A stretch of 48,786 nucleotides of DNA, from the NCBI RefSeq assembly GCF_026627925.1, contig NZ_JAPNLE010000008.1:1-48786 (forward strand), read 5' to 3'. Positions 16,116 to 44,817 of the stretch are shown here, one piece after another. Numbering within the stretch: the stretch's first letter is position 1; each line of letters begins with the position of its first letter. This DNA is from Cupriavidus sp. D39. Lineage in GTDB: Bacteria; Pseudomonadota; Gammaproteobacteria; Burkholderiales; Burkholderiaceae. Under the pieces are notes generated by a model. The model did no database searches. It had not been told where the DNA came from and saw only the letters and a list, made by a program, of their open reading frames with translations. A program made the position numbers and the translations under genes.

Positions 16116-16329
16116 CATGACGGGCACCTCTTCTTTTACGACAGATATAAATCCCACTTAAGTCGGCCCCCAACTGTAGGGTTAAACCCCTAAACATTAG
16201 AGTCATTCATGCCGATAGCTGCTAGTTCTTGGGCGTCTTTTCGGGCCTAAAGCGATGCAAAAGATCGGAGCTTTCACCGCGCACAACCGCGCCCTGCTTT
16301 CGTACTCTTTCACTCGCGACACGCCGCCC

Positions 16330-16360: not shown

Positions 16361-16408
16361 CTACGCGCACCTTTGCGCAGATAACGACAATTGGAAGAAA
16401 CAACGCGG

Positions 16409-17620
16409 ATGACCAAACCTAACCAGCAGGAGATCGCCCGGCGCCAGCCTCAGCTGCCCCCGGCCTTCGAGTTCCCCATCACCAATGAGATCGACCGGGT
16501 CACGCACGAGCTACGAGACACGTTGCGCGGCCAAATTAGCGATGAAACGATTGAAGCGATTGTCCAGGCCACGCGCGTGGTTCGCGGCTCGATCCAACGC
16601 ATCAAGACCGAACACGTCACTATTGGCGGCCAACTCTCGCTGATTGACAATGCCTTGACCGATGATCTGATCATGGCCCTCGGAGATAATCGCGGCGCTC
16701 GCAACAAGGCGCACACCCTGTTCTATGTGATCGCCGAGAAAGCGTTCGACCTCAAGAAGGCCAGCGCACGTATCTACATGTCTTCCTATCGGAAGTTTCT
16801 GGACGAAACCGGTGCCCTTTCGACATTCAACCAAGGCGAAATGGCGATCCTTATAAGGTCCGACATTACCCTGGATGAAGTCGACCTTCTCGTGGAGGAG
16901 AAAACCAAGAACCCGAAAATGAAGCGGTCAGAGATCCGCCCATTTATCGAGAGACTTCGCGCGAAGGAAATTGAGATTCAGGATGTTCAGAACAAGCTCG
17001 AACTGGCCGCCAATGAGTTGGCCGACAGCACGGCTGAGCATTCCGAAAAGGATTTCGAGATTCGCCGCCTGCGCGAGCAGATCACACAGTTGAAAGGCGA
17101 ACGGCAGGAAGCCGAATCCGCCCTCTCCTCCAGCAAGAACGATCTTTCTCGCGCCAATTCCGCCTTCAGCCGGTTACAGATGGCGATCGATGAGACCGAG
17201 AAGGAAAATCAGCGCCTGAAGGAAGCGGTCGCAGTCTCCAACGCCAAGGGTAAGCAAGGTACCCAACCCAATACGGTTGAGATTATTCCGCCTGGCTATG
17301 CGAGCCTGGAAGACGCGCTCACAGCGATGAATGAGCGCATGTCGGTGGCGAAGCGAGAAATGGATAATCTCCTCGCAGAACGCGCCCGACTGGAAGTTGA
17401 GGTACGCGACGCAGAAACCAGACTCGCGTCGAGTCGCGACGTACATAACGAGTTGACCCAGCTCCTAACAGATTTTGAGCGCCTCATTTCTTCGTTCTCT
17501 GCACTGCAGCTTACCGTTCAGCTTGAAAACAAGAAGGACATGTATCGGTCAACGTTTGAGGTGCTCGCGGGTTTCGCCAACCGCTTGAGCAACGACTTGC
17601 AGGCCTACATCTCCAAATAA
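16409..17620 (+). CDS. Coiled-coil protein of unknown function
   Basis: A 403-residue protein. Residues about 1-180 are a globular helical domain (EFPITNEIDRVTHELRDTLR, DDLIMALGDNRGARNKAHTL, ITLDEVDLLVEEKTKNPKMK). Residues about 185-280 and 310-365 are long coiled coils (AKEIEIQDVQNKLELAANEL, FEIRRLREQITQLKGERQEA). The shape recalls KfrA-like plasmid proteins or chromosome-organising proteins, but the N-terminus lacks a clear helix-turn-helix I could name. ATG 16409 is used; a TTG at 16391 is possible. It lies 22 bases upstream of the FlhDC-like regulator and is probably cotranscribed, so it may help that regulator or bind the same control regions. Confidence 0.6.
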   Translation: MTKPNQQEIARRQPQLPPAFEFPITNEIDRVTHELRDTLRGQISDETIEAIVQATRVVRGSIQRIKTEHVTIGGQLSLIDNALTDDLIMALGDNRGARNKAHTLFYVIAEKAFDLKKASARIYMSSYRKFLDETGALSTFNQGEMAILIRSDITLDEVDLLVEEKTKNPKMKRSEIRPFIERLRAKEIEIQDVQNKLELAANELADSTAEHSEKDFEIRRLREQITQLKGERQEAESALSSSKNDLSRANSAFSRLQMAIDETEKENQRLKEAVAVSNAKGKQGTQPNTVEIIPPGYASLEDALTAMNERMSVAKREMDNLLAERARLEVEVRDAETRLASSRDVHNELTQLLTDFERLISSFSALQLTVQLENKKDMYRSTFEVLAGFANRLSNDLQAYISK

Positions 17621-17642: not shown

Positions 17643-18823
17643 ATGATCATTAGCCAGGGTAGCAACACATTCAACGGACTGAAACTCTCCCGCATGACAC
17701 AGGATCGCATTCGATCCGCGAACTACTATTTGACGGACTTCTTGACGGAAGCCCTCGGTTCGCATCGGGACTTTGAGCTGACGCTGCGTGTCAGCAAGAA
17801 GAACCTAGACTCGATTCGCACCAATGAGGCAGCCTACCGGGACCTGATGGGGACCCCCTTCCTCGTGGTGACACCCACGCTCACGGAAGTAAACGACTGG
17901 AAGAGCCTGACCGACCATACCACCAGCACACTGGCCATCGACAAGCTGCGCAAGGACACCCCCAGGCTCAACGGCCAAGATCAGATCCGGTTGTTCTACA
18001 ACAACCGGCAATACCTGTGGATGCTGGTCGAGCTGCTTCATACCAGCGTCCTTGCCGCCCCCTGCTCGGCATCAGCCAGGAACTGGCCGACTACCTGCGC
18101 AAGGTCCCCCAGCACGTGCTGGATCTCGGAATCGCCCAGGTCGAGTTTCCGATCTTCCGGTGGCGGATCTCCAGCAAGCTCTTCTGGACTGAGTATCAAT
18201 CAGACCGTATCAGCCCAGAGGCGCTGGCGCATTACTTCTTGGCGTCGACGCCCATTCGGGCCGATCGCCTGGAGCACAAGCACTCATGGTCCAATTTGCG
18301 ACTGCACCGATACCAGTCGAAGGTCTACAGCGAGATGCTGATTCGGCAGCACTGCCGCGCTTCCACTGTTGGCTCCCTGCTCGCCATCAGCCTGACGACC
18401 AGCCGCCGCCTTTACATGGACATTCACGGCGTCTCGTCACCTAGCGGCAAGGTACCCAGCTCCCTGAATTGGTACTTCGAGGCCCCAACCTATCGTCAGC
18501 AAGCAACGATGATGGTCTCGCTGTATCGGATGGCCCTGGCCACTGGCTCCAACGTCCCAGCCGCATTCATTGCAGCCTTCGACATCATGCAGAGCCTCTT
18601 CGGATCTGATCTCAAGCTGACTGCGGATCGCGCCTGCCACATCTGCCGAGCGATGGCGTCCAGCGCGGAAGTCGAACTGGCGCCTTGCCGGATTTGCAGC
18701 ACGCCATATCTGATCGCAAACACTGGCCCTCGGATCGAGCTGTCTCACAACTTCGCGTGCCCGAGCTGCTCTGCCTCCCTCAGCCATCAGACCGTCGCGA
18801 AACGCAAGCGGCGCGATAAGTAG
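17643..18823 (+). CDS. Single-chain FlhD-FlhC-like transcriptional activator (one frameshift)
   Basis: About 393 residues after adding one C to the C5 run at 18058-18062 (codon about 138). Residues about 118-185 resemble FlhD: NNRQYLWMLVELLH, then LLGISQELADYLRKVPQHVL and VEFPIFRW, parallel to the E. coli FlhD core (YLLLAQRL, LGINEEMA, LPQMVKLAE, CHFRF). Residues about 232-393 resemble FlhC: LLAISLTTSRRLYMDIHGVS, then SPSGKVPSSLNWYFEAPTYR, a zinc site C349, C352, C373, C376, and a basic tail AKRKRRDK like FlhC's VKRRKL. FlhC and FlhD are normally separate. Residues 1-117 are extra. FlhDC-type pairs (AcaCD, SetCD) switch on transfer genes of IncC and SXT elements, so this is the likely master activator here. 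The FlhC part is well supported; the FlhD part is my alignment by eye. Confidence 0.65.
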
Positions 18824-21637: not shown

Positions 21638-21715
21638 GCAATACCAACAACTATGCCAGCAGAGCCGGTGTCGCTGACCGGCATAAACTCACCAAAACTC
21701 GATAGCTTTCGGCGG

Positions 21716-22370: not shown

Positions 22371-23593
22371 TTAGGGTTGTTGCGTCTGGGTGGGAATCGG
22401 GCGCTTGCCGCCCATAGCCGCCATGGCGGTGCGGGATTTCATTTCCTGCGCCATGAAGGCCGGCATGAAGGCAAGCGCGGTGATGATCACGATCAGGATG
22501 ATCGTTGCGCGACGATTGAAGCGCGACGCGCGCTGTTGCATGAGCTGGGGGTCGTCTTGAGCAGGTCCTCCGACACGGTGTGAAGCATCTTCGACAGGTC
22601 GCTTTCGTACTCGGCGATGTCCTGAATCCTGTAGCTGGTATCGCGGTCAAACAGACCCGTATCGAACACCTTCCCACCCTCGTTCGGCGCATATTCCAAG
22701 TTCAACTCGATGCGCTCGATGTGATACGCCAGGTATGGGTAGGCATTGGCCCGCATCAGCACCAGGCCGTCCAATAGGTTGCGTGCATCCCCACCGAACT
22801 TCTTGGTCACGGCCGAGAGACCGGCCAGAAACTGGGCGCTTTGGAATCGACGGAAGAAGTCGAACGCCAGCATCCTGCGGTCCAGCCACCCGCGGTAGCG
22901 CCCCACATAGCGGGTCAGGGCCCGAGCCACCCACACGCCGGCGGCGACTTCGGCAATCACGAGCAACCATCCCCAGTGCCGCAGGAACGTCGAGGCGTGG
23001 TGGAAGGTCGATGCAATGGGACCGTACTGACTCACATCCAGCATTGCGCTGAATGACTTGTCGATGGCCGGGCCGATCAGAAACGCCAGGGCGCCGAGAT
23101 AGGCATGGAGAATCACAACCGTCATGACCACGCCTGCCAGCGTCATGGCAATGCCAGCGCGTGCCTCGCCAAGAGCGGTAAGGTTGCGCGACAGCGTTTC
23201 CAGGCCCTCCCGAATGTCGCCGCCTTCTTCCGCCACGGCGAGGATGGGAATGTCCTCGTCCGGAATCGTCCCCCGGAAGATCTCCGTCAACCGCGATCGC
23301 TGCATCTGCCCGTCGATCCCCTCGGACCGTGCAAGCCAGTACGCCGCGAGCACGCCTACCGGCTCGCCAACGCGCCGCGCCGCGTCCTTGGCGAAATGGT
23401 TGGAAACCGGCTCCCCCGGCATATGGAGAATCCGCTTCGCCAGATCACCGTAGTACGTCGCTCGCATGCTGCGGAAGCGATACTTGGCCCAGAACAGGCG
23501 GTCCATGAACACTTGATCGCCCGCCTTCAGCATCGGACCGCCGACCTTGCGTTGGGCCAGCCCAACCAGCCACTGTGCTAGTTTGTTGAACAT
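22371..23593 (-). CDS. pilR: Pilus inner-membrane platform protein PilR (one frameshift)
   Basis: A GspF-like integral membrane protein of about 407 residues that anchors the assembly ATPase. It starts MFNKLAQWLVGLAQRKVGG. It has two repeats of the platform fold with membrane helices (AGIAMTLAGVVMTVVILHAY, HWGWLLVIAEVAAGVWVARA) and ends in a last helix. The given frame stops prematurely in SCNSARRAS. One more base in the G5 run at 22547-22551 restores LLKTTPQLMQQRASRFN and a final membrane helix ATIILIVIITALAFMPAF up to the stop at 22371. I therefore regard it as intact. It follows pilQ and precedes pilS, the IncI order. Confidence 0.85.
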
Positions 23594-23603
23594 GCCGTTC
23601 CTC

Positions 23604-25417: not shown

Positions 25418-25428
25418 CGCAGCGGCCC

Positions 25429-31524: not shown

Positions 31525-32339
31525 TGGGTATGGGTCGCCGGATCGAGTTGCTTGAAGTGGGTCATGAAGCGAGCAAAGTAGGCACCGCCGCGGCTCGAAT
31601 CGGCGCTGTGGTACCAGGCGATGGCCTTCATCGCGGACCCGCTCCGTTGCAGGTTCTCCATCAGGATCGTCTCGGCCACGCGGATGTTGGTCGCTGGCGC
31701 CAGCGCCTCCCAGGGGGACGCAAAGCGTTGGCCGTGGTAGCACCAGTTGATTTGCATAATCCCGACGTCGAAGTCGCATCGCCGGGCGGCAAGCAGGCGG
31801 TTGACCGTCGCGTGCGCATCCTCGCGGGTGGCGAAGAACATGCCGCGTCCGGCAACGTTGAGCGTCCAGGGCCAGGGCCGGCCGCGATAGGCCGACTCGT
31901 TCATGGCAATGCCCGCCAGAATCAGCGGGTCCACGCGACGGCTCATGGCCGCAAACGGTGCAGCCTTCGGTGCGCAAGCCCAGCCGCCACGACGCTCGAC
32001 CATCGCCTCTTGCGCGGCCTCGGTCAATTCGGTCGGCCGCAGCCAGCCCTCACCGGCAAACACGCTCGCAAGGGGTACCGTCTTTCCCTCCCGGACAATC
32101 TCCGGGCCCTGCGCGCCGCCAGCCTCGATCTGCGCACCGATCAGCTGGGCGGACCAGCCTAGGAAGCGCTCCAGCCCGCAGTACAGCACTGGCTTACCGG
32201 GAAGGCTCAGCAGCCGTGCGGCACCATCCGCACGCACGACCACCGCGGTCGGACTGACAATCGCCTCGATCGTTGCCGCGTGCGGGATGGCAGGCGTCGC
32301 CGCGAGCGCCGTCGCTAAGAGGCATGCGCGCTCAATCAC
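31521..32339 (-). CDS. Lytic transglycosylase with an N-terminal OB/SNase-like domain
   Basis: About 272 residues starting at GTG 32339, which overlaps the virB10 stop (GTGATTGA). After the signal peptide (LLATALAATPAIPHA) a beta-rich part (ATIEAIVSPTAVVVRADG, LPGKPVLYCGLERFLGW) resembles a nuclease/OB-type fold. The SLT domain follows, with catalytic Glu in LAGIAMNESAYRGRPWPW, FDVGIMQINWCYHGQRF and IRVAETILMENL ... AIAWYHSAD. It is a VirB1-type muramidase for the secretion channel. No in-frame ATG would fit the N-terminal signal, so the GTG start is well supported. The OB-like domain call is an inference. Confidence 0.75.
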   Translation of the reverse strand: MIERACLLATALAATPAIPHAATIEAIVSPTAVVVRADGAARLLSLPGKPVLYCGLERFLGWSAQLIGAQIEAGGAQGPEIVREGKTVPLASVFAGEGWLRPTELTEAAQEAMVERRGGWACAPKAAPFAAMSRRVDPLILAGIAMNESAYRGRPWPWTLNVAGRGMFFATREDAHATVNRLLAARRCDFDVGIMQINWCYHGQRFASPWEALAPATNIRVAETILMENLQRSGSAMKAIAWYHSADSSRGGAYFARFMTHFKQLDPATHTQ

Positions 32340-33561
32340 GGTAGGGCTCCAAGACCATGTCGTGTTTGACCTGCACGAGCATCCTCTGGCCCGGCTCGGT
32401 GGTGATCGTCGGCCGGATGTTCTGGTTGCGATTGAGGATGGTCTGCGCGGTCTGCGCCGCAACCTGCCCGGCGGTGTTGCCGTAGGTGGTCAGTCCCCCC
32501 GGCGTCGCTGTGGTGGCCGTCGCCGTGTTGTTGAATCGCTGCTCCAGGAAGCCGATGATCACGGCACCCGAGAAGATCTTAAAGAAGTGATTGTTGACGT
32601 CGCCGCTAATGCCGGCGTAGCCGTTGGTGTCCGTACCCTGCATACCCAAGAGAGGCACAACCTTGCCATTCGGCATCTGCATCCGAATGAATGCCGCGAG
32701 CAAGCGCTCCTGCCCGATGGCGATGTCTGGGCTATAGGCGCCGACCAGCGTCGTGCCGGCCGCGATCACCTTGCAGGTCCCATCTACCGTGTCGTACACG
32801 TCCTGATCCACCGTCGCGCGGAACTCACCTGGCTTGTCCGAGTTATTACCGCCAACGAAGGTGGCCGGGATGACGAACCCGCGGCTCAGCGTGCACTTCG
32901 GCAGTACGCCGGAGAAACTGGTGCGCAGGGTTTTCGTCGCCGACGTCTCGTTCAGGAACTGCCGGTCGCTAGATACCGTCGCAGGTTCCTGGCCCGGGGG
33001 CACACCCACGCCGCCGGCGCCCGCCGCCGCTGCCTGCTGCATTGCGCGCATCTGCGCGGGATCATCAGGCAGGCCCGATAGGTTCGCCTGACCCGAAGCC
33101 CGCGCATTCTTCAGCTGACCAGCACTTTTGAAGATGGGCGCTGTGAAGAGCGCATCTTCGTTGCTCTTCTTAGACAAATTCTCGCCACCCTGACTCTGGC
33201 CACCGCCACCAAAATCCTGTGCGGTCAGGATGGGTGCCTTGCCTGCCGGCTCGTTCTGTTTGCCGGCAAGCACCTTCTGGCGCGCAGCCTCGGCGCGAGC
33301 TTCTTCTTGCTGCTTGCGGATCTCCTGGTCCAGGCTGTTGCCCTGTTCCGACGCGGAGGTGCGGTCGCGCAGCCGCGCGGCCTTTTGTTCTTCAGCCTTC
33401 TGCTTAATCTCCGCATCACTGCGGCTCTGGTAGTAGTACCCCAGCGTGCCGACGACAACCGCCGCCACGGTCGCCAACGAATAGACGATATTGCGAGGAA
33501 GCTTCCCCTTGGTCGCGCGAGCCTGCGCGTCAGTCACGTCCTCGACTTGCGTCTTCTTCAC
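32332..33561 (-). CDS. virB10: T4SS outer core protein VirB10/TrbI
   Basis: A 409-residue VirB10. Order: cytosolic N-terminus (MKKTQVEDVTDAQARATKGK), membrane helix NIVYSLATVAAVVVGTLGYY (residues about 24-43), a coiled, Glu/Lys/Gln-rich periplasmic region and a Pro/Ala linker. The conserved beta-barrel domain has CTLSRGFVIPATFVGG, VDQDVYDTVDGTCKVIAAGT, ALLAAFIRMQMPNGKVVPL-type strands (QERLLAAFIRMQMPNG), the antenna region HFFKIFSGAVIIGFLEQ and IRPTITTEPGQRMLVQVKHD. It spans both membranes and carries the energy signal to the outer-membrane pore. It lies between virB9 and the transglycosylase. A C6 run occurs here in frame, so not all long runs are shortened. Confidence 0.93.
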   Translation of the reverse strand: MKKTQVEDVTDAQARATKGKLPRNIVYSLATVAAVVVGTLGYYYQSRSDAEIKQKAEEQKAARLRDRTSASEQGNSLDQEIRKQQEEARAEAARQKVLAGKQNEPAGKAPILTAQDFGGGGQSQGGENLSKKSNEDALFTAPIFKSAGQLKNARASGQANLSGLPDDPAQMRAMQQAAAAGAGGVGVPPGQEPATVSSDRQFLNETSATKTLRTSFSGVLPKCTLSRGFVIPATFVGGNNSDKPGEFRATVDQDVYDTVDGTCKVIAAGTTLVGAYSPDIAIGQERLLAAFIRMQMPNGKVVPLLGMQGTDTNGYAGISGDVNNHFFKIFSGAVIIGFLEQRFNNTATATTATPGGLTTYGNTAGQVAAQTAQTILNRNQNIRPTITTEPGQRMLVQVKHDMVLEPYRD

Positions 33562-33572
33562 CTTGGCCCCCT

Positions 33573-34463
33573 TCAGAACAAGCCGAGCAGCCGGCGGCGA
33601 CCGCGTTGCACAGTGACTTCAGCATTGCCCGAGCGCAGCACCACGTTCTCCGCGAGACGCTGCAGCACCAGGAACTCACCACGGCGGATGAAGTTCGCGA
33701 CGACGAAGTCGCTTCCGTCCTTCACCAGCGCGACGGGCCAGTCAGCGCCCTTGGGAATGCGCATCCAGATCGCCTTACCATCGTCAAAGACTTGATCGGG
33801 ACGGAATTCGGCGTTGCCACCCACCGAGTAGTCGAAATTCAGCTTGTCCGGGGAGACACCAAGCGAAGGTTGCGTAGCCTGGTCCGGCTCTGCGCCGCTT
33901 ATTCCGGGCGCATCTCCGCCCCGAGCCTTCACCTTCGCCATCATCGGCTCTGGCACGTTGAAGCGGACCTTCTGATAGAACATGCCGCCTAGAGGCGACG
34001 AGACCAGAGTAAACTCGTAGCTACGCTTGTTCGTGTTCACCGAGAGCGTGTTCACGAGGCCTGGCGCATGCGGGCGCAAATAGATGTGGTTAATGCCGTC
34101 GGTGTCATAGCTCCACCGAACGTTCTCACCCCAGGCCGGTTCCGAGGCTATCGTCTCCCCGGCGGGGAATTCGATCGTCGTCGTCTTGAGCGGCGCCGAC
34201 AGTACGCGGAAGATCTGGTCCTGGCTGTACGTGAAGACCACGAGACGCGAGTCCGCCGGCAGCGCGACCGGATCGGCACCGCCATTCAGCGGATTGAACG
34301 GGTTCATCGCATCGCTGATATCACCAACGCCGAGCGGCGGTACGCCACCGAGGCCTTTGCGCGCCACCTTGTCGGCGGCAAAGCCCAACGGTGACGAGAG
34401 AACGAGAGCGATGCTGCCGGCGATGGCCAGCGACGAGAGTCGGTTACGCATGAGGGAATCCAT
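33573..34463 (-). CDS. virB9: T4SS outer core protein VirB9/TrbG/CagX
   Basis: A 296-residue protein with a signal peptide (SSLAIAGSIALVLSSPLGFA). The N-terminal domain has SRLVVFTYSQDQIFRVLSAP, IASEPAWGENVRWSYDTDGI and LRPHAPGLVNTLSVNTNKRS (the R.P...N..V.T..R signature), with YEFTLVSS. The C-terminal CagX beta domain has LNFDYSVGGNAEFRPDQVFD, DGKAIWMRIPKGADWPVALV and FVVANFIRRGEFLVLQRLAE. It forms the outer-membrane ring with VirB10. No separate VirB7 lipoprotein was found in the window. It starts 5 bases after the virB8 stop. Confidence 0.93.
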   Translation of the reverse strand: MDSLMRNRLSSLAIAGSIALVLSSPLGFAADKVARKGLGGVPPLGVGDISDAMNPFNPLNGGADPVALPADSRLVVFTYSQDQIFRVLSAPLKTTTIEFPAGETIASEPAWGENVRWSYDTDGINHIYLRPHAPGLVNTLSVNTNKRSYEFTLVSSPLGGMFYQKVRFNVPEPMMAKVKARGGDAPGISGAEPDQATQPSLGVSPDKLNFDYSVGGNAEFRPDQVFDDGKAIWMRIPKGADWPVALVKDGSDFVVANFIRRGEFLVLQRLAENVVLRSGNAEVTVQRGRRRLLGLF

Positions 34464-34468
34464 GATGT

Positions 34469-35176
34469 TCAGACGCCGGACTTCTGAAGGGTAAAGAAGA
34501 CCGGGTGTACGCCAAATGGGTTGGGGCCCAGAATGGCCTCGCCCGTGGGCGGCTTGATCTGGTAGCGCACGGTCAGTGCATAACGAGTGGGCTTAGGCTT
34601 GCGTCCCTCTTCCACCGTGGTCGTAACAAAGTCGACCACCACCGTGCTATCCGGCAGTACCGAGACATTCGTCACCTTCGGCTCACGCGTCAGACCAGGC
34701 GATGCGCTCACCGCCTTGACGGGTTCATCGTCGACGACCCAGTCATCGAACTGGCCTCGCGCCGCACCGATCATCTGCTCCTTGACGGACCGCAGACTCT
34801 TCGACATCCGCGAGTCCTCGATCTTCTCCGTCAGAATCGGCTCGATGGTGAACCAGCGCACCACCAAGTCCTTGAATGCGGCTTGGATCGCTACGTTGCT
34901 GGGCTGGTACGCCTCCAGCTCACGCACGACGGGCTTGCCACCGGCGTCCGCCGAGACACCGAACGCGCGCACCTGCGGTTCAGGCGGCTGGCGTGTGAGG
35001 ATCGCGGCCAGCGCGACCACGACCAGTCCCAACGTGGCAAGCTTCCAGTGATTGCGCTCGACTGAGAGTCGCGTCGTACGGTCGAAGATCACCTGATCGC
35101 CGCTCTCTCCGGCATACATACCGGGGGCCGGGGACAGTGCGGTTTTGGAATCGGTCTTTCGGGAAAGCAGTCGCAT
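34469..35176 (-). CDS. virB8: T4SS inner-membrane protein VirB8/TrbF
   Basis: A 235-residue VirB8/TrbF: a short cytosolic N-terminus, one membrane helix (HWKLATLGLVVVALAAIL, about 43-60), then the periplasmic NTF2-like domain. That domain has ELEAYQPSNVAIQAAFKDLV, RWFTIEPILTEKIEDSRMSK, SLRSVKEQMIGAARGQFDDW, VTNVSVLPDSTVVVDFVTTT and TRYALTVRYQIKPPTGEAI. It ends GVHPVFFTLQKSGV. It organises the inner-membrane complex. It is the first gene of the leftward operon, read from the divergent control region 35177-35611. The start ATG is preceded by no strong Shine-Dalgarno, in keeping with activator control. Confidence 0.92.
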   Translation of the reverse strand: MRLLSRKTDSKTALSPAPGMYAGESGDQVIFDRTTRLSVERNHWKLATLGLVVVALAAILTRQPPEPQVRAFGVSADAGGKPVVRELEAYQPSNVAIQAAFKDLVVRWFTIEPILTEKIEDSRMSKSLRSVKEQMIGAARGQFDDWVVDDEPVKAVSASPGLTREPKVTNVSVLPDSTVVVDFVTTTVEEGRKPKPTRYALTVRYQIKPPTGEAILGPNPFGVHPVFFTLQKSGV

Positions 35177-35256
35177 GAGGCGTCCTATTGGATGCCGCTA
35201 ATTGAACCAGCAATTGCTACCCCACCGGCCGTCAAAAGCTATGTGATATTCAACAG

Positions 35257-35271
35257 CTTTCTGGGTAATTT
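35257..35271. promoter_or_regulatory. AGCTTTCTGGG box upstream of virB8
   Basis: AGCTTTCTGGGTAAT matches AGCTTTCTGGGGAAT within the 44-bp element at 35362-35405, except at one base. It sits about 85 bases upstream of virB8. The complementary form CAGAAAGCT is found next to the other 44-bp copy near 16060. Likely the same factor binds all three. Confidence 0.5.
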
Positions 35272-35361
35272 CATTCTCGTACCTCCGTCGCACGATCGGT
35301 CGTGTTCGCCGGTCCGGATATGACCATCAGAGGCAATCATGCAAGACCAGAAAGGCGACAT

Positions 35362-35405
35362 ATTTGTGTGAGCTTTCTGGGGAATACTGTGAATCATGAT
35401 TAACG
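35362..35405. promoter_or_regulatory. 44-bp shared regulatory element, copy 2
   Basis: It is identical in 37 of 44 bases to 16072-16115 in the same orientation, including ATTTGTG, GGGGAATA and AATCATGATTAACG with the palindrome AATCATGATT (35392-35401). It lies between the divergent T4SS operons. Candidate site for the FlhDC-like activator or for a repressor. Confidence 0.65.
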
Positions 35406-35611
35406 GTCATCCCGAAACGCAATCGGGAGTCTGGGCTTCGCAAGTCCGTTAGCCGGCCTGAAGGGGTGCGCACAAGGTCGTGACCCGATCCGCAGCCAGC
35501 CACGGCGCGGGGCGCGGCACAGCCCTCGTTTCCGATATTCTGAGAAAACTCGCGAAAATCGTAGAGCTTTCGACGCTCACGTCATCCGGTAGCGAATCAA
35601 CAATAGCGGGC

Positions 35612-36664
35612 ATGTCTACCCATGCCTTCGACCACCCCGCACTACAGCTGAGCCAACTGGAAGACAGTGCCGTCGGCATGTTCTTCGAGTCGCTGTCGCC
35701 TGTTCGTCCGTACATGGAGTCCTCCGAGGTGGCCGAGGTCATGATCAACCGCCACGACAGCATCTGGATCGAGCGCAGGGGCCAGCTGCTCAAGCTCGAC
35801 ATCAAGCTCGATCCTGCCATGGTCGAAGGCGCCGTCAGATCGCTCGCCTCGTCCGTGCAGAAGTCGGCTGTTAGAGGAACGCACCAAGGCATCATCAACG
35901 CCGGTCATCAAGGCTTGCGCATTGCAGCGGTGATGCGACCGACCGCGATCGACGGCCACGCGCTGAGCATCCGACGCCATCGCGACACCAATCTGACCCT
36001 TGCCGACTACGTCAGGATGGGCGCCTTCTCAGCGGCCGTCGCAAGAAGCCGCGAAGCCGAAGCCCCGATTTTCCCGCCCGGCGCGGTGGACGACGAGGTC
36101 ATGCACGCGCTCGCAGGACTGGTTCGCCAGCGCAAGAGCATCCTCGTCGCAGGCGGTACCTCCTCTGGCAAGACCACCCTGCTTAACGCCCTGGTCGGCG
36201 AAATACCCGACACCGAACGCGTGATCACCATCGAGGACACGCAAGAGCTCAAGCTGAGCGTGCCTAACTCGGTACGGCTGCTCAGCAACACCGACAAGCA
36301 GGTCACGACGCAAATGCTGGTCGCGCTCAGCTTGCGGTTTCGGCCAGACCGCATTCTCGTTGGCGAGGTGCGAGGCGGCGAAGCCTTCGACTTCATTCAG
36401 GCACTGAACACCGGCCACGATGGTGGCATGGGGTCCCTGCACGCAAGCACCGCCCGCTCGGCGCTCTCGCGCCTGGAGGGCATGGCCATGCTCGGCATCC
36501 CGCCAGGCTCCCGCTGGGAACTCAACGATATGCGCAAGCTCATCGCCGAGTGCTTCCACTATGTGGTCCACATGCGGCGCACCGGCGAGCTGCGTCACCT
36601 TTCCGAAGTCCTGGAAATTCAGGGGTTCGACGACAACAACTACGTACTCAAACGGGTCTTTTAA
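35612..36664 (+). CDS. virB11: T4SS ATPase VirB11/TrbB
   Basis: A 350-residue traffic ATPase. The N-terminal domain has MESSEVAEVMINRHDSIWIE, LASSVQKSAVRGTHQ and SIRRHRDTNLTLADYVRMGA. The ATPase core has Walker A ILVAGGTSSGKTTLLNAL (near residue 181), the Asp box VITIEDTQELKL, Walker B/His box RFRPDRILVGEVRGGEAFDF and the His motif GSLHASTARSALSRL. It energises pilus assembly and DNA transfer. ATG 35612 (MSTHAFDHPALQ) is preferred to the GTG at 35480, because the added 44 residues look random. It opens the rightward transfer operon, ahead of virB2, in an order unlike Ti (where it comes last). Confidence 0.93.
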   Translation: MSTHAFDHPALQLSQLEDSAVGMFFESLSPVRPYMESSEVAEVMINRHDSIWIERRGQLLKLDIKLDPAMVEGAVRSLASSVQKSAVRGTHQGIINAGHQGLRIAAVMRPTAIDGHALSIRRHRDTNLTLADYVRMGAFSAAVARSREAEAPIFPPGAVDDEVMHALAGLVRQRKSILVAGGTSSGKTTLLNALVGEIPDTERVITIEDTQELKLSVPNSVRLLSNTDKQVTTQMLVALSLRFRPDRILVGEVRGGEAFDFIQALNTGHDGGMGSLHASTARSALSRLEGMAMLGIPPGSRWELNDMRKLIAECFHYVVHMRRTGELRHLSEVLEIQGFDDNNYVLKRVF

Positions 36665-37027: not shown

Positions 37028-37357
37028 ATGCGCAGCCACCACGTCAGCCGCTCGCTTTCTCTTCCGCGCATGATCGGTGGCGCGGTCCGAGGCATTGCCA
37101 TTGCCAATGGCACGATCACGGCATTGCTGATCTACGTCACCTATAGGGCCGGTTGGCAGTTGCCCGTGGCGGCATTGGTCTTCGGCATCATGGTTCACGG
37201 CCTGCTGCGCTGGATCACCACGCGGGATCCGTGGTGGAACCAGGTCCTGAACGTCTTCAATCACTACGGTGACGTCTACGATTCGATGCCGTGGCATGGT
37301 CGCATGCACGCCCGGTTCCGCCGTCCCTACGGCTTTGATAGCGACCTCCCATGCTGA
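37028..37357 (+). CDS. virB3: T4SS membrane protein VirB3/TrbD
   Basis: This 109-residue inner-membrane protein has a basic N-terminus (SLSLPRMIGGAVRGIAIANG), two hydrophobic helices (TITALLIYVTYRAGWQL and PVAALVFGIMVHGLLRWITT) and the C-terminal VFNHYGDVYDSMPWHGRM. It is the usual partner of VirB4. ATG 37028 is directly after the virB2 stop, and its end overlaps the virB4 start (ATGCTGA). Confidence 0.85.
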   Translation: MRSHHVSRSLSLPRMIGGAVRGIAIANGTITALLIYVTYRAGWQLPVAALVFGIMVHGLLRWITTRDPWWNQVLNVFNHYGDVYDSMPWHGRMHARFRRPYGFDSDLPC

Positions 37358-39802
37358 AGCGCCGCCCCTCCAGGAAATCGCTCCCTGGCTCACCCCTTTT
37401 ACGCCCGAGCTTGTCCTGAACAAGGACGGCTCACTGCTGGCAAGCTACGAGTTCACGGGTATTGACGCGGATGCGCCAAACGCCAGCGATATCAGTTCGG
37501 CAAGAGATCAGCTTGACCAGGCCTGTCGCTCTTTCGACAGCCGGGTGACTGCGTGGTGGCGGTTGCGCCACCGTCGCACTAAGCGATACGTGGGCGGCGA
37601 GTTCGCGTCTCCGTCCGATGCGCGCATTGACGAGCTGAACCGGCAGCACATGACGACCGGGAAGTACTTCACGAACACCCATAGCCTGCATCTGGCCTAC
37701 ACGCCGGAAAACGGGATGGATAAAGTGTTCGACAAGATGAGCTACCACATGACCGTTGGAGGTCGGGCGTTTGTGCCAGCGGCGGTAGAGACGACGAAGG
37801 ACATTCTGCTGGCTCGCAACGCATTCGCCTTCGACGTCGAGAGGATGAGCGCGGACGCGAAGCGCTTCGAATCGATGCTGGATGCCTTCAAGGGCGGGGC
37901 CGTCCGACTGGGGCTGAAACGTCTGGTTCTGCAGGACGCGCTGGCCGAACTCCATCAAACCGCCAACCCGACTGTGCCTCAGCGTCGCATCCGCTATCCG
38001 ATGACGTTGCTCGACACGCACCTGACCGAGTCGGAAGTCACGGCCGGTGCGGAGCGGCTGATCTTCGAGTCCGCGCATGGCAAGCGCTATGGCGCCATCG
38101 TCGCTGTCAAGGAGTGGCTCGGCTTTCAGGAGGCGGCCCTTGATGTGCTGACCCAGATCGATGCCGAACTCGATATCTGCCTGATGTTCCGGTTCCTCGA
38201 CACCGCCAAGGCGACGAAGCACATCGAGGCCGTCCGTCGTTTCTACAAGATGGCTGCCTTCAACGTCTGGTCGATCATCAAGCAGTATGCATCGAAGGAA
38301 GAGCCGGAGAACGACGAGGGACGTGAGCAGCTCGCCAAGGAGGCCGGGGCGGCACTGAAGCGTCTGACCGCGGAAGGCCAGCAACATGGATTCGCCAACA
38401 TCTCCATCATCGTCTACGGCGACACGGAGAATGAGCTTGAAGACTCCGTCAGCGAAGTGGTGGGCGCGCTGACGAACGCGGGATTCGGGTCGATCCGGGA
38501 GAAGGCAAATCTGATGCCTGCCTGGAACAGCACCCTGCCCGGTCGCTGGGACAAGCAGCGCCGGCTGCAGTTCGTTGAGACGCCCGCCCTCTCCGACATC
38601 GCGCCGGTCCGAGCCGTCCACAATGGTCCGAGCTTGAACGGTTGGCTCACCGACAAGGCCGGCATCGAGATCCCGCCGCTAACTTGCCTGCCCACGCGCT
38701 ACCGCACCGCGCAGAACCTGGACCTGCATCAACCAGGCGGCAACGGCCACCTGCTCATGCTCGGCCCCATCGGCGCCGGCAAATCGGTGATGCTGAACTT
38801 CCTGATGTCGCAGGCTGGCAGGCAAAAGGCGCGTCGCATCCGCTTTGACAAGGACCGCTCCACCCGCATCACCACGTTGCTGGGTGGGGGCAAGTTCATT
38901 GATATCACTGGCGAGACCCAGGCCGCGACGAAGGTCAATCCGCTTGTGCTGGTGGCAGATCCCGCCAATTTCTCGTACCTGGTCGAATGGCTCGGTCTGG
39001 CGATGGAAGACGACGAGTTTCGGCTCTCCCCCAGCAGCGCACCGATATTTTCGAGGCTGTGCAGATCCTGTCTCGCTATCCGCGCGAGAAATGGACGCTG
39101 ACTCACCTTTGCACCTTGCTGCATTCAGACCTGCGCGAGCGCCTGCAGATGTGGACCACCGGCGGCCAGTATGGGCACTTCTTCGACAACGTGGAAGACG
39201 CCTTCGACGTGAGCGACGACCTCGCCATCGAGATGGGATCCCTGATGGAGAAGTTTCCTGCGGCCGCCGTGCTGTTCGTGGACTATGCCTTCTACCGCAT
39301 CAAGCAGACGATGGATGGCATCGCGCACGTCGTCATCGAGGTGGAGGAAGCCGGCTTCTTCTTTAAGAACAAGAACGTCTATAGCCGCCTGGAGAACTGG
39401 GTCACGACGATCCGCAAGCTTAACGGCGCGATCCGCATGGCGACCCAATCGCTGCGGCAGATCGTCCGTGTTGCCGACTTCGAGATCCTCAAGGACAACA
39501 TCGGCTCGCTGATCTACCTGCCGAACAACCAGGCCCTTACGGATACCGATCTCTATTGCGACACCTTCGGCCTGACCCGCGATCAAGTGAAGATGATCAA
39601 TGATGCCGTCCCGAACCGCGACTACCTGTTGGTGACGCGATCGCAGACCCGCATGCTGCAAACCAATTTTTCCGACGAGATGATCGCCATGCTGCGCTCG
39701 GACGGATATGCCCAAGCCGTTCTAGACAGGCACATGGCATCAGGCGAACCAGGCTGGCAACAACGCTATGTGCGCGAGATCCTCGCCCGCACTGGCAAGT
39801 AA
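37351..39802 (+). CDS. virB4: T4SS ATPase VirB4/TrbE (two frameshifts)
   Basis: An AAA+ T4SS motor of about 817 residues. N-terminal CagE-type domain: EIAPWLTPFTPELVLNKDGS, LLASYEFTGIDADAP, AAFNVWSIIKQYASKEEPEN. ATPase domain: Walker A LLMLGPIGAGKSVMLNFLMS (near residue 471), Walker B FPAAAVLFVDYAFYRIKQT, RKLNGAIRMATQSLRQIVR and a C-terminal DYLLVTRSQTRMLQTNFSDE. The natural start MLKRRPLQEIAPWL lies at ATG 37351 overlapping virB3. It is reached only if the C4 run at 37364-37367 has one more C. A second missing C in the C5 run at 39028-39032 joins EFRLSPQQRTDIFEAVQIL. With both corrected it is intact. VirB4 drives pilin assembly and substrate transfer. Confidence 0.92.
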
Positions 39803-39816
39803 AGGAGATTCTCACC

Positions 39817-40569
39817 ATGATCAAACGCATGACTGCCGCTGGCATCCTGGCGCTCGCTATGGGGTCCGCTTCTATGCCGGCATTCGCAAGCGGCTGGCCA
39901 GTCTTCGACGCGGCCAACTTCCTGAAGAACACACTGACAGCTGCTCAGGCCCTGAAGACCGAGGTGTACGAAAACACCAACATCGCCTACCAGTACAAGA
40001 TGATGTTGAATCAACTGACGCAGGCCACAGGTCTCGACCCTGCCGCCCTGGCGGAACAGGCCAATGTCATCAAGGCCGACATCTCCAAGCTTGAGGAGTA
40101 CGGCCAAACACTGCAGTCCCTCTATGGTGGCATTTCGGAAAGCGCCGACTTTCTTGCGCGTGTCCAAAGTCTTGTGGTTGTGTCTGGAAAGACGCCTGAA
40201 CAATGGTTCCAGGACCAACGTACGCTAATCGGCAATGGCGACAAGGCAGCTAAGCAGCTCTTCTCCATAGCTAGAAAAATCGCGGGTAACAATCAGTCTC
40301 TGGCGAAGCGACGGGCAAAGATCCAGGAAGACATGACACTCTCCCCTACCGCCCAAGCGACCGCAGAAGCGACGAATCACATGCTCGACGTGCTGGCCAG
40401 CCAGAACAGCGACGTGCTGCAGCTCATGAGTGCCAAGGCGCAGTCGGATGCCACGAAGGACCAGAGGGCACTAGCCGCCGACACCGAGGCCACGAACGTG
40501 ACGCAGCAGATCCAACGCGATCAGGAAGCCCAACTCAACAAACTGCGCCAGACGGTGTTCAAGAACTGA
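39817..40569 (+). CDS. virB5: T4SS minor pilus protein VirB5/TrbJ
   Basis: A 250-residue exported protein with a signal peptide (AAGILALAMGSASMPAFA). A helical mature part follows: WPVFDAANFLKNTLTAAQAL, ENTNIAYQYKMMLNQLTQAT, ISKLEEYGQTLQSLYGGISE and QATAEATNHMLDVLASQNSD, ending in Gln-rich coils. These are hallmarks of TrbJ/VirB5, a pilus-tip or adhesion subunit. It starts 14 bases after virB4 with AAAGGAG and shares its last base region with the next ATG (TGATG). Confidence 0.88.
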   Translation: MIKRMTAAGILALAMGSASMPAFASGWPVFDAANFLKNTLTAAQALKTEVYENTNIAYQYKMMLNQLTQATGLDPAALAEQANVIKADISKLEEYGQTLQSLYGGISESADFLARVQSLVVVSGKTPEQWFQDQRTLIGNGDKAAKQLFSIARKIAGNNQSLAKRRAKIQEDMTLSPTAQATAEATNHMLDVLASQNSDVLQLMSAKAQSDATKDQRALAADTEATNVTQQIQRDQEAQLNKLRQTVFKN

Positions 40570-41681
40570 TGCGTACCTTTCGAGCCCCTGTCATGCCGTC
40601 ACGCTTCGCGCGTCTGCTGCTCGCCGCCTTCGCGGCTGTCCTTCTCAGCCTGTGTGCTGGTGCCGTATTCGCGCAAAGCGAAACCGTGGATCTTCCCGGG
40701 ATAGGAACGCCATCCGGCGGTGGGTCGACCGATAGCGGGTCGGGGAGCGGCACGCAACCCGGTAACGGCAAGTCGGTCTATATCTCCCCGCCGGGAACGG
40801 TTGCGGAAGGGCTCGGAAAGGCTGCAGGGAAGATTCAGGGTCTGCGAAGCGGGCTTTCGGCGGGCGCACTCAGGCTTAGCGATACGGTCCGATCCGAAGC
40901 AGACAAGCTGGCCTTCGCCTTGGGCGTCATCACACTTGTCCTGGCCGGCTTCCGCTTCGCGGGGACTGGGGACGCCACCGCTGCCTGGACGGATCTGTTG
41001 GAGGAATTGACCCTCATTGGGATCTTTGCCGCGATCTATGTCGGCTACGACCAGTTCGGGCCGGGGATTTTCGAGTGGTTCAACGCCTTAGCCACGCGGA
41101 TCAATGGCGCAGAGGTCACCCCAGGCGCGAGCATCATCACAACGGCCGGGAAGCTGTGGGATTCGTATGTCAGGATCGCCACGAGCGGATTCAGCCTAGA
41201 GAACATTCTGAAGTCCATGGTTGCTGCGATCCTTCTGTTCCTTGCCTTTCTGGCCTGTGCGTTTGCAGCGATTATCTTTTACTTCTTCACGATGCTTGGA
41301 GAGTTGCAAGTCGCGGTAGGCGTGGTGGTCGGCCCGATCGCAGTAGCGCTAGCCTTCTCATCTTTTACGCGTCGCTACTTCACGGCATGGCTCGACTACA
41401 TGTTCAGCGGTTCGCTGTACATCGTTGTCGCAGCGATCATTTCCCGTCTCGTGACAACCACGTTGGACTCCACGCTCGGCACTGTCAATGCTGCAGGCAC
41501 CGACACGATGGCGGCCGGCGTGTACGCATTGGCTATCTCCATCATGCTGATACTGATTTCTCTGGAAATCCCCGCTATCGCTGGCAAGCTGTTCGGCACA
41601 GGCGGTGGCGTCTCGGGCGGCGGTGCGCTGCGTGCCGCGGGCCGCGGTGCCTGGAAGCTCGGCGGGAAGATGGTGAAGTGA
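40569..41681 (+). CDS. virB6: T4SS channel protein VirB6/TrbL
   Basis: A 370-residue polytopic inner-membrane protein. The N-terminal signal/helix (RLLLAAFAAVLLSLCAGAVF) is followed by a Gly/Ser-rich spacer (GIGTPSGGGSTDSGSGSGTQ) and then about five membrane helices: FALGVITLVLAGFRFAG, LTLIGIFAAIYVG, AAILLFLAFLACAFAAIIFY, VGVVVGPIAVALAF and VYALAISIMLILISLEIPAI. It forms part of the DNA path through the inner membrane. It ends 2 bases before the TraI_2 gene. Confidence 0.88.
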   Translation: MRTFRAPVMPSRFARLLLAAFAAVLLSLCAGAVFAQSETVDLPGIGTPSGGGSTDSGSGSGTQPGNGKSVYISPPGTVAEGLGKAAGKIQGLRSGLSAGALRLSDTVRSEADKLAFALGVITLVLAGFRFAGTGDATAAWTDLLEELTLIGIFAAIYVGYDQFGPGIFEWFNALATRINGAEVTPGASIITTAGKLWDSYVRIATSGFSLENILKSMVAAILLFLAFLACAFAAIIFYFFTMLGELQVAVGVVVGPIAVALAFSSFTRRYFTAWLDYMFSGSLYIVVAAIISRLVTTTLDSTLGTVNAAGTDTMAAGVYALAISIMLILISLEIPAIAGKLFGTGGGVSGGGALRAAGRGAWKLGGKMVK

Positions 41682-41683
41682 AC

Positions 41684-42958
41684 ATGCATACCCCAATGAC
41701 CACCGGCGAGCTTCTGACGGCGCACCAGGCGCGCACCGACCTGATCCGCCAGTACGCCAACGAGGCCGAGCCGGCGGTATTCGCGAAGAAGTGGACCGCG
41801 ATACTGGAACGGTGCGCCGTCTGGTTCTCCTCGATGCCGCTACGTCCTGAAGAGCACGCGGAGCCGGGTGGCGCGTTCCGTGCCACGGTCGAGGTGGCCT
41901 ACTTCGCCATGCGCCTGTCGGGTGGCCAGAAGTTCGGTGCGGATAAGCCCTCCGAGCAACGTCGTCGCCTTGAGCCGCAATACCTGCACGCCCTCTTCCT
42001 CGCAGCTTGCTGCTCCAGACTGGACGAGCCTTGCAGGCATTTCCAATTTCACCGCGCGGTTGACGGCGCCGAATGGCTGCCGGCACTGCACGGCGCCTTT
42101 GGTCCATGGCTGGGCGATGGCAGCTACCGTGTGACACGCCGTGCGGCGACGCTACCCGTCGAACGCATGCGAACTGCCCTTCTCGCCCGCGAGATTCTCG
42201 GCCAGGACATCCTGGCCAGCCTGGACAGCGAAGTGCTGTCGGAGCTGTTCGCCGCCATCAACCCCGAACCTCGACCGGTCACGCTCGAATCGCTGCTGCA
42301 CAAGGTGGTCCGACTTGCCGTCGACGCCACCACCAGCTTTGAGCTGAAGGCGCGTCGCGCGGACTTTGCCCCGGTGGGGACGCCGGCACCGTCGGCGGAC
42401 CTGCTCGCTGCGGGATCCCTGCCCCAGGAGTCGGTGAAGGCTGTTCCGGCTGATACCCCGCCCCATGCCGTGGTCCCTCCGACCGAGAGCGCCGCAGCCT
42501 CTGTCATCAGCCTCTTTGCAGCCGCTGGCGCCAAGGGGACTCCGGCATCTGAAGCCCGTGACGCGACCCCTCCGCAAGATCGCCCCAGCCCGCAAGAAGT
42601 ACCGCGTAGTGCTCAGCCAATGCAGCTGGATAGTGGGCGCAGCCTCCGTCGCGGCTCGGATGAATCCACCGCGCCCGAAGGACTCGCAGACGTCCTCGGG
42701 AATGCATCTAACCTGATGCGCGAGTTCTTCCTCGCGTTGGCGCAGGACGTTACAGCGGGGAAGGTTCCGGTGACGTGGGCGGGCAACCGGCTTGTCTTGC
42801 CAAAGCGGGCGCTGGGCAACTATGGGCTGTCTAGCGACACGCTGATCGAGAGCCTAAAGAAGCTGTCCTTTCTGGCGCGAGTCCAGGGCACCGATCTCGT
42901 GCTGACCGAGAAGATCAGTGGCGTTCTCGCATCGCGCCCGCCGGTTCAGGAGCCTTGA
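41684..42958 (+). CDS. TraI_2 (MobH-like) protein lacking the relaxase metal motif
   Basis: This 424-residue protein has the two-part layout of TraI_2 relaxases of SXT/ICE type: an N-terminal TraI_2 domain (about 15-240) and, after a Pro/Ala/Ser linker, a TraI_2_C winged helix (REFFLALAQDVTAGKVPVTW, AGNRLVLPKRALGNYGLSSD). In active MobH proteins the first domain carries HHH..GGL.RHSLEVA and a later HD-GK pair. Here the matching text is LRPEEHAEPGGAFRATVEVA (only H58 kept; Ala at the second His) and LAACCSRLDEP (no HD). It is also shorter than active members (about 600-700). It is thus probably a non-catalytic relative or an accessory factor. It directly precedes the TraD coupling protein, as MobH genes do. 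Confidence 0.7.
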   Translation: MHTPMTTGELLTAHQARTDLIRQYANEAEPAVFAKKWTAILERCAVWFSSMPLRPEEHAEPGGAFRATVEVAYFAMRLSGGQKFGADKPSEQRRRLEPQYLHALFLAACCSRLDEPCRHFQFHRAVDGAEWLPALHGAFGPWLGDGSYRVTRRAATLPVERMRTALLAREILGQDILASLDSEVLSELFAAINPEPRPVTLESLLHKVVRLAVDATTSFELKARRADFAPVGTPAPSADLLAAGSLPQESVKAVPADTPPHAVVPPTESAAASVISLFAAAGAKGTPASEARDATPPQDRPSPQEVPRSAQPMQLDSGRSLRRGSDESTAPEGLADVLGNASNLMREFFLALAQDVTAGKVPVTWAGNRLVLPKRALGNYGLSSDTLIESLKKLSFLARVQGTDLVLTEKISGVLASRPPVQEP

Positions 42959-42960
42959 GC

Positions 42961-44817
42961 ATGCGCCATTATGTGAACCCCTTTCGGCCGATCTTCGAGA
43001 TGCGAGCCGCGACCGGGTGGCTCGGTGCATTGGTCCTGCTGCCATTGTCCGGGATGCCGCACTGGGGATACTTCGCCCTGCTCTGCCTGGCTGCATTTTC
43101 CCTGCGCGCGGCGCAAGTCTGGAAGGCCCTGAAGTTCCGCATGGCCATCTCCACGAAGTGGCTGACCAAGATCCGCATCGAGAACCTTCTGCACACCACG
43201 GCACAGATGCGGCGCGATGAAGACGCCATGTACCTTGGCACCGGGTTCGAATGGACACAGCGTCATTGCCAGATCGCTCACGACATCCTGCGGATGCCCA
43301 CCAACGACATTCCCGGCTTGCCGAAGTGGCTTCCCAAAGAGGTGGCCGCCGTCATCGAGAGGCAATTTGCCCCGGCGAATGCATTACGGGACCGGTCTCC
43401 GCAGGGCAAGTCCTGGATCCACGGGATGGAGCCGAAGAAGGTGCACGTCCCTCTCCACTACAAGGCGATGCCGGGCCACACGGCTGTGGCAGGAACGACC
43501 GGCAGCGGCAAGACCCGCACCTATGAGGTCATTTGCACCCAGGTCGTTCACGATCCGAACGACATTTTGATTATTGTGGACCCTAAAAATGACCGCGAAT
43601 GGAAAGAGCGCGTCGAGCGCGAATGCGCCCGCGCCGGCCGAAAGTTCCTGTACTGGAAGCAGGCAGCGCCATCCGAGTCGATCCGCCTCAACCCGCTAGA
43701 AAACTGGTCGCAGCCGTCGGAAATCGCCAGCCGAATTGCCCAACTGCTGGAAGAAGGACCTTTCCGCGACTTCGCATTCCTCTTCATCGACCGTGCCGTC
43801 AAGGGCGAGCTTTACGTCGGTGACAAGCCGAACCTGCGTTCCATCCTGAATTACGCGCAAAGCGGCATCAACAATCTGCTGGACCGCGCTCTGCGTCGCT
43901 TCTTCGCGGAAATGGGATTCACCGCCTGGGAGGACGAGGCGGGATCCTACATGCAGCAGGTCGGGCAGCGGCCCGGCGGGACGCTGATCGAGGCAATGGT
44001 TCGCTTGTACACCGAGCGGTACTTCAACGTCGGCCGCGGGCACGAGTCCATCGACGGCCTGGTCGGCACCTTTGTCCATGACCGCGACCACTACATGCGG
44101 ATCATCGCCTCGGTCCTTCCGCTCCTGCAGATGCTTGCCACAGGGGAGACGGGGCTCATGCTCGCCCCCAAGGCGGACGATTTCACCGATGACCGTGAGA
44201 TTTGGGACATCGACAAGGTAATCAAGCAAAAGGCAGTTCTGTTCGTCGGCCTGGACTCGCTCTCCAGCAGCATCGTCGCGAAGGCCATCGCCTCGATGAT
44301 CCTGTCCGACGTCGCGTCGGTGGCCGGGGCCATCTACAACTTCTACGCCAAGCCGCCTAAGGTTGTCCTGGTCATCGATGAGGTGGCAGAAGCGATCAAT
44401 GAGCAGGTGATCCAGATCCTCAACAAGGGCCGCGGCGCAGGCTTCAATGCCCTGGTCGCCTTCCAAAGCCGCTCCGATTTGGAGGCGAAACTGGGAAACG
44501 CAGCAAAAATGATGCAGGTTTTGGGGAATCTCAACAACCAGATCATCTTACGATTGGAAGACACGGACACGGCCCAGTGGTTCTCGGACAAGGTTGGGGA
44601 AACGGCGATTCAGAACATCACCACCACCAGCAGCACGAGCACTGGATCCGAGGCACATATCGGCGAGTTCAACGGGTCGGTTTCGCGTTCGACGCAACTG
44701 GAAAAGGCGCCGCTTATCCCGACTCAGCTGATCACTATGCTGCCCAACCTGCAATATTTTCTGCGCATCTCTGGTGGATCCGTCTACCAAGGCCGGATTC
44801 CCATCATCGAAGGATAG
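42961..44817 (+). CDS. traD: T4SS coupling protein TraD/VirD4 (SXT/ICE type)
   Basis: This 618-residue coupling ATPase has two N-terminal membrane helices (GWLGALVLLPLSGM and WGYFALLCLAAFSLRA). Then come MPGHTAVAGTTGSGKTRTYE (Walker A, near residue 180), ILIIVDPKNDREWKERVE and ESIRLNPLENWSQPSEIASR. A Walker B-like IDGLVGTFVHDRDHYMRIIA region follows, then KVVLVIDEVAEAINEQVIQI (Walker B) and KGRGAGFNALVAFQSRSDLE. Near the end are NLNNQIILRLEDTDTAQWFS and PLIPTQLITMLPNLQYFLRI. It hands DNA-protein complexes to the channel. The TTG at 42955 is an alternative start. Confidence 0.92.
   Translation: MRHYVNPFRPIFEMRAATGWLGALVLLPLSGMPHWGYFALLCLAAFSLRAAQVWKALKFRMAISTKWLTKIRIENLLHTTAQMRRDEDAMYLGTGFEWTQRHCQIAHDILRMPTNDIPGLPKWLPKEVAAVIERQFAPANALRDRSPQGKSWIHGMEPKKVHVPLHYKAMPGHTAVAGTTGSGKTRTYEVICTQVVHDPNDILIIVDPKNDREWKERVERECARAGRKFLYWKQAAPSESIRLNPLENWSQPSEIASRIAQLLEEGPFRDFAFLFIDRAVKGELYVGDKPNLRSILNYAQSGINNLLDRALRRFFAEMGFTAWEDEAGSYMQQVGQRPGGTLIEAMVRLYTERYFNVGRGHESIDGLVGTFVHDRDHYMRIIASVLPLLQMLATGETGLMLAPKADDFTDDREIWDIDKVIKQKAVLFVGLDSLSSSIVAKAIASMILSDVASVAGAIYNFYAKPPKVVLVIDEVAEAINEQVIQILNKGRGAGFNALVAFQSRSDLEAKLGNAAKMMQVLGNLNNQIILRLEDTDTAQWFSDKVGETAIQNITTTSSTSTGSEAHIGEFNGSVSRSTQLEKAPLIPTQLITMLPNLQYFLRISGGSVYQGRIPIIEG

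Follow-up and report, generated by a model that had tools for sequence, protein, structure and literature searches.

FlhDC is a two-protein activator in which FlhD and FlhC are separate chains, and the cysteines of FlhC bind zinc. In the flagellar FlhD4C2 complex, two internal and two peripheral FlhD subunits form, together with FlhC, a six-membered ring that is needed for function, with FlhC binding the DNA and a Zn-Cys cluster named for this subunit (PMC3510510, available text). The related pairs AcaCD, SetCD, SgaCD, AqaCD and AsaCD activate, or are proposed to activate, conjugative plasmids, SXT-type ICEs and SGI1, and AcaD of IncC plasmids is described as a weakly FlhD-like protein of 22.8 kDa (PMC4207636 for both and PMC4542580 for the former, in their accessible parts). 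A further FlhDC-like ICE activator is BisDC of ICEclc; as far as the accessible part of PMC7423338 goes, BisC corresponds to DUF2857 with a predicted structure that is FlhC-like, and BisD has a ParB domain without detected FlhD. The locus described here lies in a 48,786-nucleotide stretch of contig NZ_JAPNLE010000008.1 of Cupriavidus sp. D39 (the window) and probably encodes a regulator that joins FlhD, FlhD and FlhC in one chain and has a candidate operator, which would be a new form among the FlhDC-type conjugation activators. In a literature search of limited reach, which does not establish that the fusion is undescribed, no FlhC/FlhD-type regulator was reported for the large plasmids that carry it.

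The fusion gene is located at 17643..18823 on the forward strand, as are its three parts: a divergent first FlhD-like repeat, predicted at 17691..17954 (residues ~17-104 in the numbering of the homolog at locus L008), a better conserved second repeat at 17973..18247 (residues ~111-202 in the same numbering) and an FlhC-like domain with a four-cysteine zinc site at 18308..18769, whose Cys codons start at 18686, 18695, 18758 and 18767. In the window copy, the gene consists of two ORFs, 17643-18341 and 18017-18823, with a frame switch near 18,060, inside the second repeat. This break was left unmended and the two pieces were searched separately; they matched the family alignment over residues 5-140 (E=2.6e-44) and 140-390 (E=4.5e-114).

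The C-terminal half of the fusion has the FlhC fold. The Pfam FlhC profile (PF05280) scored 33.7 bits on the window's second piece, above the cut-off of 27, and matched all 38 homologs at E up to 1, three of six homologs searched singly scoring 21.6-23.4 bits, under the cut-off. The four zinc-site cysteines are invariant, each position being conserved in 38 of 38 homologs, and they align with cysteines of the FlhC structures 8j56_C and 2avu_E. The FlhC-like zinc domain recognised in the initial annotation is thereby borne out.

The FlhD fold is present in the second repeat. The Pfam FlhD profile (PF05247) had no match on the window's own pieces, the first of which lacked any significant Pfam match, and it matched six of the 38 family members at E up to 1. 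Its best score, 19.1 bits (E=0.0016), came from the P. sabiae homolog and fell short of the 27-bit cut-off. A search of the family profile against 177,635 PDB sequences gave three matches up to E=10, of which one was FlhD (E=0.0017) and the others were FlhC. When residues 105-204 were compared with 36 FlhD sequences using hhalign, the score was 39.6, against 25.9 for the best of 100 column shuffles, and residues 116-185 aligned with FlhD, in agreement with the earlier alignment of this segment to the FlhD core. The fusion thus shares with FlhD4C2 (E. coli 2avu; C. necator 8j56) the FlhC fold, the zinc site and the FlhD fold of the second repeat, as well as the D-before-C order.

Fusion of these domains is nearly universal in the family. 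A tblastn search with the C-terminal piece retrieved 48 plasmid records from Cupriavidus, Burkholderia, Paraburkholderia, Caballeronia and Robbsia, and an alignment search retrieved 46 genome-contig loci. The two FlhD repeats and the FlhC domain lie within one ORF in 45 of the 46 genome-contig loci (L052 being the only split homolog), in all six plasmid loci and in all 15 loci of relatives, so the homologs keep in one gene both the FlhC half and the FlhD-like half, whose similarity to FlhD was found by profile. Plasmids pMOL28 (WP_011239915) and pHG1 (WP_011154251) carry the fusion, annotated as 'FlhC family transcriptional regulator'. Among 60 genomes, including its own, a full-length fusion was found in 15 others, all from the same genus, which contributed 35 relatives to the set. 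Across 369 genomes of the class, nine had a match at E up to 1e-9, own genome included, and no further fusion was found, the remaining matches covering the C domain. Separately, 34 of the 35 same-genus relatives have an FlhC-type match, and no chromosomal FlhC was found in the 97.8% complete genome studied here.

The initial annotation had placed the FlhC-like domain in frame behind the FlhD-like segment, which is the arrangement of the homologs' single gene, but the window copy changes frame near 18,060. This change could mark a dead or dying copy, in an element no longer under the control of the fusion, and frame splits also affect two other genes of the window (22389-25984), namely T2SSF, at its end, and the one in the pilus-ATPase position (named from gene order in homologous plasmid loci), as well as virB8 on contig C1 of the same genome. 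However, the same type of break occurs in several unrelated genes on two contigs, which points to an assembly error as likelier than decay; moreover, the homologs of the fusion are intact. A dead copy is, on this evidence, unlikely.

The fusion is linked to conjugation genes, as expected from the earlier assignment of the window to a conjugative element. Directly upstream, and probably in the same operon, an ORF on the forward strand (16391..17620) encodes a coiled-coil protein of ~400 residues with no specific Pfam family, just weak coiled-coil-type matches. In six of six annotated plasmid loci, the fusion is immediately preceded by a hypothetical gene 371-427 codons long, and in the two loci tested, it is homologous to the window's coiled-coil gene (36% and 26% identity). 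The presumed targets are the virB8-virB9-virB10 operon on the reverse strand (32332..35176; Pfam VirB8, CagX and TrbI) and the gene for a virB11-type ATPase on the forward strand (35612..36664; PF00437), for which homologs place the start at 35612. They are followed on the forward strand by further conjugation genes identified with Pfam, virB4, virB6/trbL, a TraI_2 relaxase and a coupling protein (37269..44817), and the window also carries integrase, pilin and weak secretin genes. We take the relaxase to be of the MOBH type. All 40 listed of the 48 fusion plasmid records are among the 59 records with a VirB8 of the window type (compared by eye), and on pENH92, the fusion and VirB8 (385816 and 402812) are about 17 kb apart, much like in the window.

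A candidate operator was found by comparing the region between the divergent virB11 and virB8 genes in the window with its counterparts on nine Cupriavidus plasmids. These regions vary greatly, and, besides gene-adjacent stretches, common to all of them is a conserved 28-bp dyad, GAAAGCT-N4-AAAATCG-N3-AGCTTTC, with half-sites GAAAGCT-N14-AGCTTTC. Allowing up to 3 mismatches, the virB8-proximal dyad lies 57-61 bp from the ATG in 10 of 10 regions and the virB11-proximal one 38-40 bp before the gene in nine of 10, the distance being 68 in the unannotated KK10; when each of the 20 sites is read in the direction of its gene, they have a common AAAATCG core. The window's candidate operators (no strand assigned) are found upstream of the coiled-coil/fusion operon (16248..16275, 2 mismatches), with its end 57 bp before virB8 (35234..35261, 1 mismatch), in the middle of the divergent virB8/virB11 region (35350..35377, 2 mismatches) and 40 bp before the virB11 start taken from homologs, oriented toward that gene (35544..35571, 1 mismatch). 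A weak candidate ahead of the pilus adhesin gene (21683..21710, 3 mismatches) could be due to chance. Overall, the window contains seven sites with up to 3 mismatches, compared to 1.49 expected, a number reached in none of 100 shuffles.

The dyad is also conserved upstream of the fusion. We collected 52 loci around it and dropped four with short upstream sequence; in the remaining 48, a dyad with at most 2 mismatches was present within 3.6 kb upstream in 39, counterparts of the window site at 16248..16275, and absent from nine, whereas a single locus had one within 3.6 kb downstream. Spacers of 8-21 other than 14 gave at most five of 48 loci and 59 shuffled half-sites at most five, in a set whose loci are mutually related, a relatedness shared by the controls, and of which at least four sit on plasmids also used for motif finding. 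In whole plasmid records, five fusion-bearing Cupriavidus plasmids had 16, 7, 4, 7 and 5 sites (2, 2, 1, 2 and 3 when the pattern was reversed), the first of them containing part of the region twice, and three fusion-bearing Burkholderia plasmids had 10, 12 and 9 (reversed 3, 1 and 3). The single plasmid tested that has VirB8 and no fusion, from B. cepacia, had none (reversed 0), and keeps a 3-mismatch dyad at the virB8 position, as does one fusion-bearing plasmid. The distance of 57-61 bp is characteristic of Cupriavidus: four Burkholderia plasmids have the site 151 bp before virB8 (two of them with 1 mismatch, the other two with 3), and in P. sabiae, where the fusion is present, the 1,500 bases before virB8 contained no site even with 3 mismatches allowed. 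Genome-wide, the dyad is weakly specific at up to 2 mismatches (20 sites vs 12 for the reversed control in own genome), and six sites with 0-1 mismatch are located on contigs C1, C6 and C8.

Two more transfer regions were observed at C1:247001-286000 and C6:364001-402500 (L153-L156), and parts of them share 88-89% identity with the window. The dyad is present in both, with no fusion gene in the stretches examined, and the whole-genome search placed the fusion on C8 only. The dyad also occurs at a hypothetical-hypothetical-bactofilin operon on pHG1 (312533), pENH92 (347713) and pMOL28 (101874), just inside the annotated start on the first two; its position at the start of this operon on three plasmids suggests that bactofilin takes part in transfer.

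Instead, the dyad could serve the neighbouring coiled-coil protein or a repressor as operator, with the fusion acting elsewhere. The linkage arguments hold equally for the coiled-coil protein, because each of the six annotated loci has a similar-sized gene next to the fusion, and a repressor, too, could act from sites located 40-60 bp ahead of start codons. Nevertheless, the FlhDC family is known for activators that use long dyad sites, and the half GAAAGCT-N4-AAAATCG resembles, by eye only, the E. coli FlhDC half-site AAYGSSNNAAATAGCG (PMC9962212, accessible part). We consider this assignment of the dyad quite unlikely. The candidate dyad of the fusion has an AAA core in common with the FlhD4C2 site, though the candidate is shorter, 28 bp compared with the 42-44 bp given for FlhD4C2 in the text available, and it differs from the AcaCD core site, GCCCAAAATGGGC.

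The 117-residue extension noted at the N terminus by the initial annotation is present, but this description under-reads it, as the full-length model and Foldseek point to a second FlhD-like domain as its most likely identity. The full-length model (pLDDT 89, pTM 0.89) has seven elements that recur in the same order at an offset of 94-96 residues, and it retrieved FlhD in Foldseek at E 6.6-9.1. Modelled alone (pLDDT 70) and compared with 350,542 chains, repeat 1 gave eight Foldseek matches, the top four being the FlhD chains 8j56_B, 1g8e_A, 2avu_B and 8j56_E, with E-values of 2-4. Conserved residues follow the same periodicity: Asn27 and Asn121 (38/38 each) are 94 positions apart, and Trp86 (38/38) and Trp182 (37/38) are 96 apart. 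An FlhD-FlhC fusion preceded by some other, unrelated helical domain, such as one for sensing or dimerisation, would account for the failure to detect FlhD by sequence in residues 1-118, where hhalign gave no match (P 0.17), the pooled FlhD profile scored 14.1 against a shuffle maximum of 16.7, and Pfam found no FlhD in the N-terminal parts of six homologs; likewise, the alignment of repeat 1 with repeat 2 did not stand out from shuffled controls, 4 of 100 of which scored higher. Against such a domain stand the shared order and spacing of the predicted elements, the FlhD chains as top matches of the isolated segment, the equally spaced Asn and Trp residues and the likely tandem FlhD in AcaD, a related activator. 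Hence, we consider an unrelated domain improbable and keep to a predicted first FlhD repeat.

AcaD offers a parallel for this arrangement. The protein (~201 residues) scored 31.6 bits with Pfam FlhD, over the cut-off and in two stretches, and both of its halves matched the pooled FlhD profile (N half 28.7, shuffle maximum 14.5; C half 53.5, shuffle maximum 15.8), so AcaD of IncC and Vibrio plasmids (L118:1501-2106 and L117:1501-2103) looks, from its sequence, like a tandem FlhD. When the N halves of two AcaD proteins were run by themselves, Pfam gave no FlhD match, and no statement of a tandem FlhD in AcaD was found in the available text of the cited literature. The AcaD profile had matches in three of 369 genomes, with one repeat each. 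Like the AcaCD, SetCD, SgaCD, AqaCD and AsaCD pairs, the fusion is of the FlhDC type, is carried by mobile elements and is a putative activator, and AcaD and AcaC have a faint sequence relation to the fusion (hhalign P 0.02-0.03). In contrast, acaD and acaC are separate genes overlapping by a few bases, whereas the fusion is one ORF, and the gene neighbours of AcaCD (PMC4542580) differ from those of the fusion.

We consider it rather probable that the product is a single-chain FlhD-FlhD-FlhC regulator whose chains act as half rings, bind the dyad and activate conjugation with positive feedback. One chain would represent half of an FlhD4C2 ring, with one peripheral FlhD, one internal FlhD and one FlhC, a reading that fits the better conservation of the repeat adjoining FlhC. 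Two chains could then pair through FlhC, rebuilding a ring of four FlhD and two FlhC, and the DNA would be held by the zinc/basic region of FlhC. In this model, the fusion would bind the 28-bp dyads upstream of the virB8 operon, the virB11 operon and its own operon, switching on the conjugation genes and reinforcing its own expression. For the single-chain FlhDC master activator first proposed, the single chain stands, with one ORF in 45 of 46 loci; the activator role, supported by the candidate operator, is one we infer, together with chain dimerisation, the identity of the dyad-binding protein and activation rather than repression. FlhD4C2 has separate flhD and flhC genes, whereas here everything is in one chain, with FlhD predicted twice. 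We lean slightly towards the view that mobile elements fixed the 4:2 stoichiometry twice, as the AcaD-type FlhD-FlhD and as a Burkholderiaceae FlhD-FlhD-FlhC half ring that homodimerises on a new 28-bp operator for megaplasmid transfer (pMOL28, pHG1). A natural single-chain FlhDC would show how the ring is built with fixed stoichiometry and would be a simpler protein for structural study of DNA binding, and the fusion and its dyad form a testable regulatory circuit for the conjugation of large Cupriavidus and Burkholderia plasmids.

FlhD4C2 serves flagella and the fusion is linked to conjugation; that it is a displaced flagellar master regulator, as its FlhC and FlhD similarity might suggest, is extremely improbable given that no flagellin, FlhD or FlhC other than the fusion was found in its own 7.74 Mb genome (97.8% complete) and that all 40 listed fusion plasmid records also carry the VirB8.

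The closest relatives found for the C domain are two-gene FlhD-like/FlhC-like pairs from the same class (L120-L125, L131 and L132; hhalign score 159, P 4e-25, 10 sequences). Unlike the fusion, they are separate genes with one short FlhD each (~98 residues). The FlhD-like ORF is plain in these eight loci, L130 has an incomplete one and L129 showed none, the FlhD of L127 is ordinary-looking, and L126 was left out of this survey. An identification of these pairs as BisDC was dropped, because BisD and BisC carry other domains (PMC7423338, accessible part). The fusion itself resembles BisDC, as an FlhDC-like ICE activator, and BisC in its FlhC-like predicted structure, and had no Pfam match to DUF2857 or ParB at E up to 10. 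In a further locus (L138:6589-11255), an FlhD-like/FlhC-like pair is encoded directly before ParA, a 553-residue protein and DUF2857, a layout of the ICEclc control-region type.
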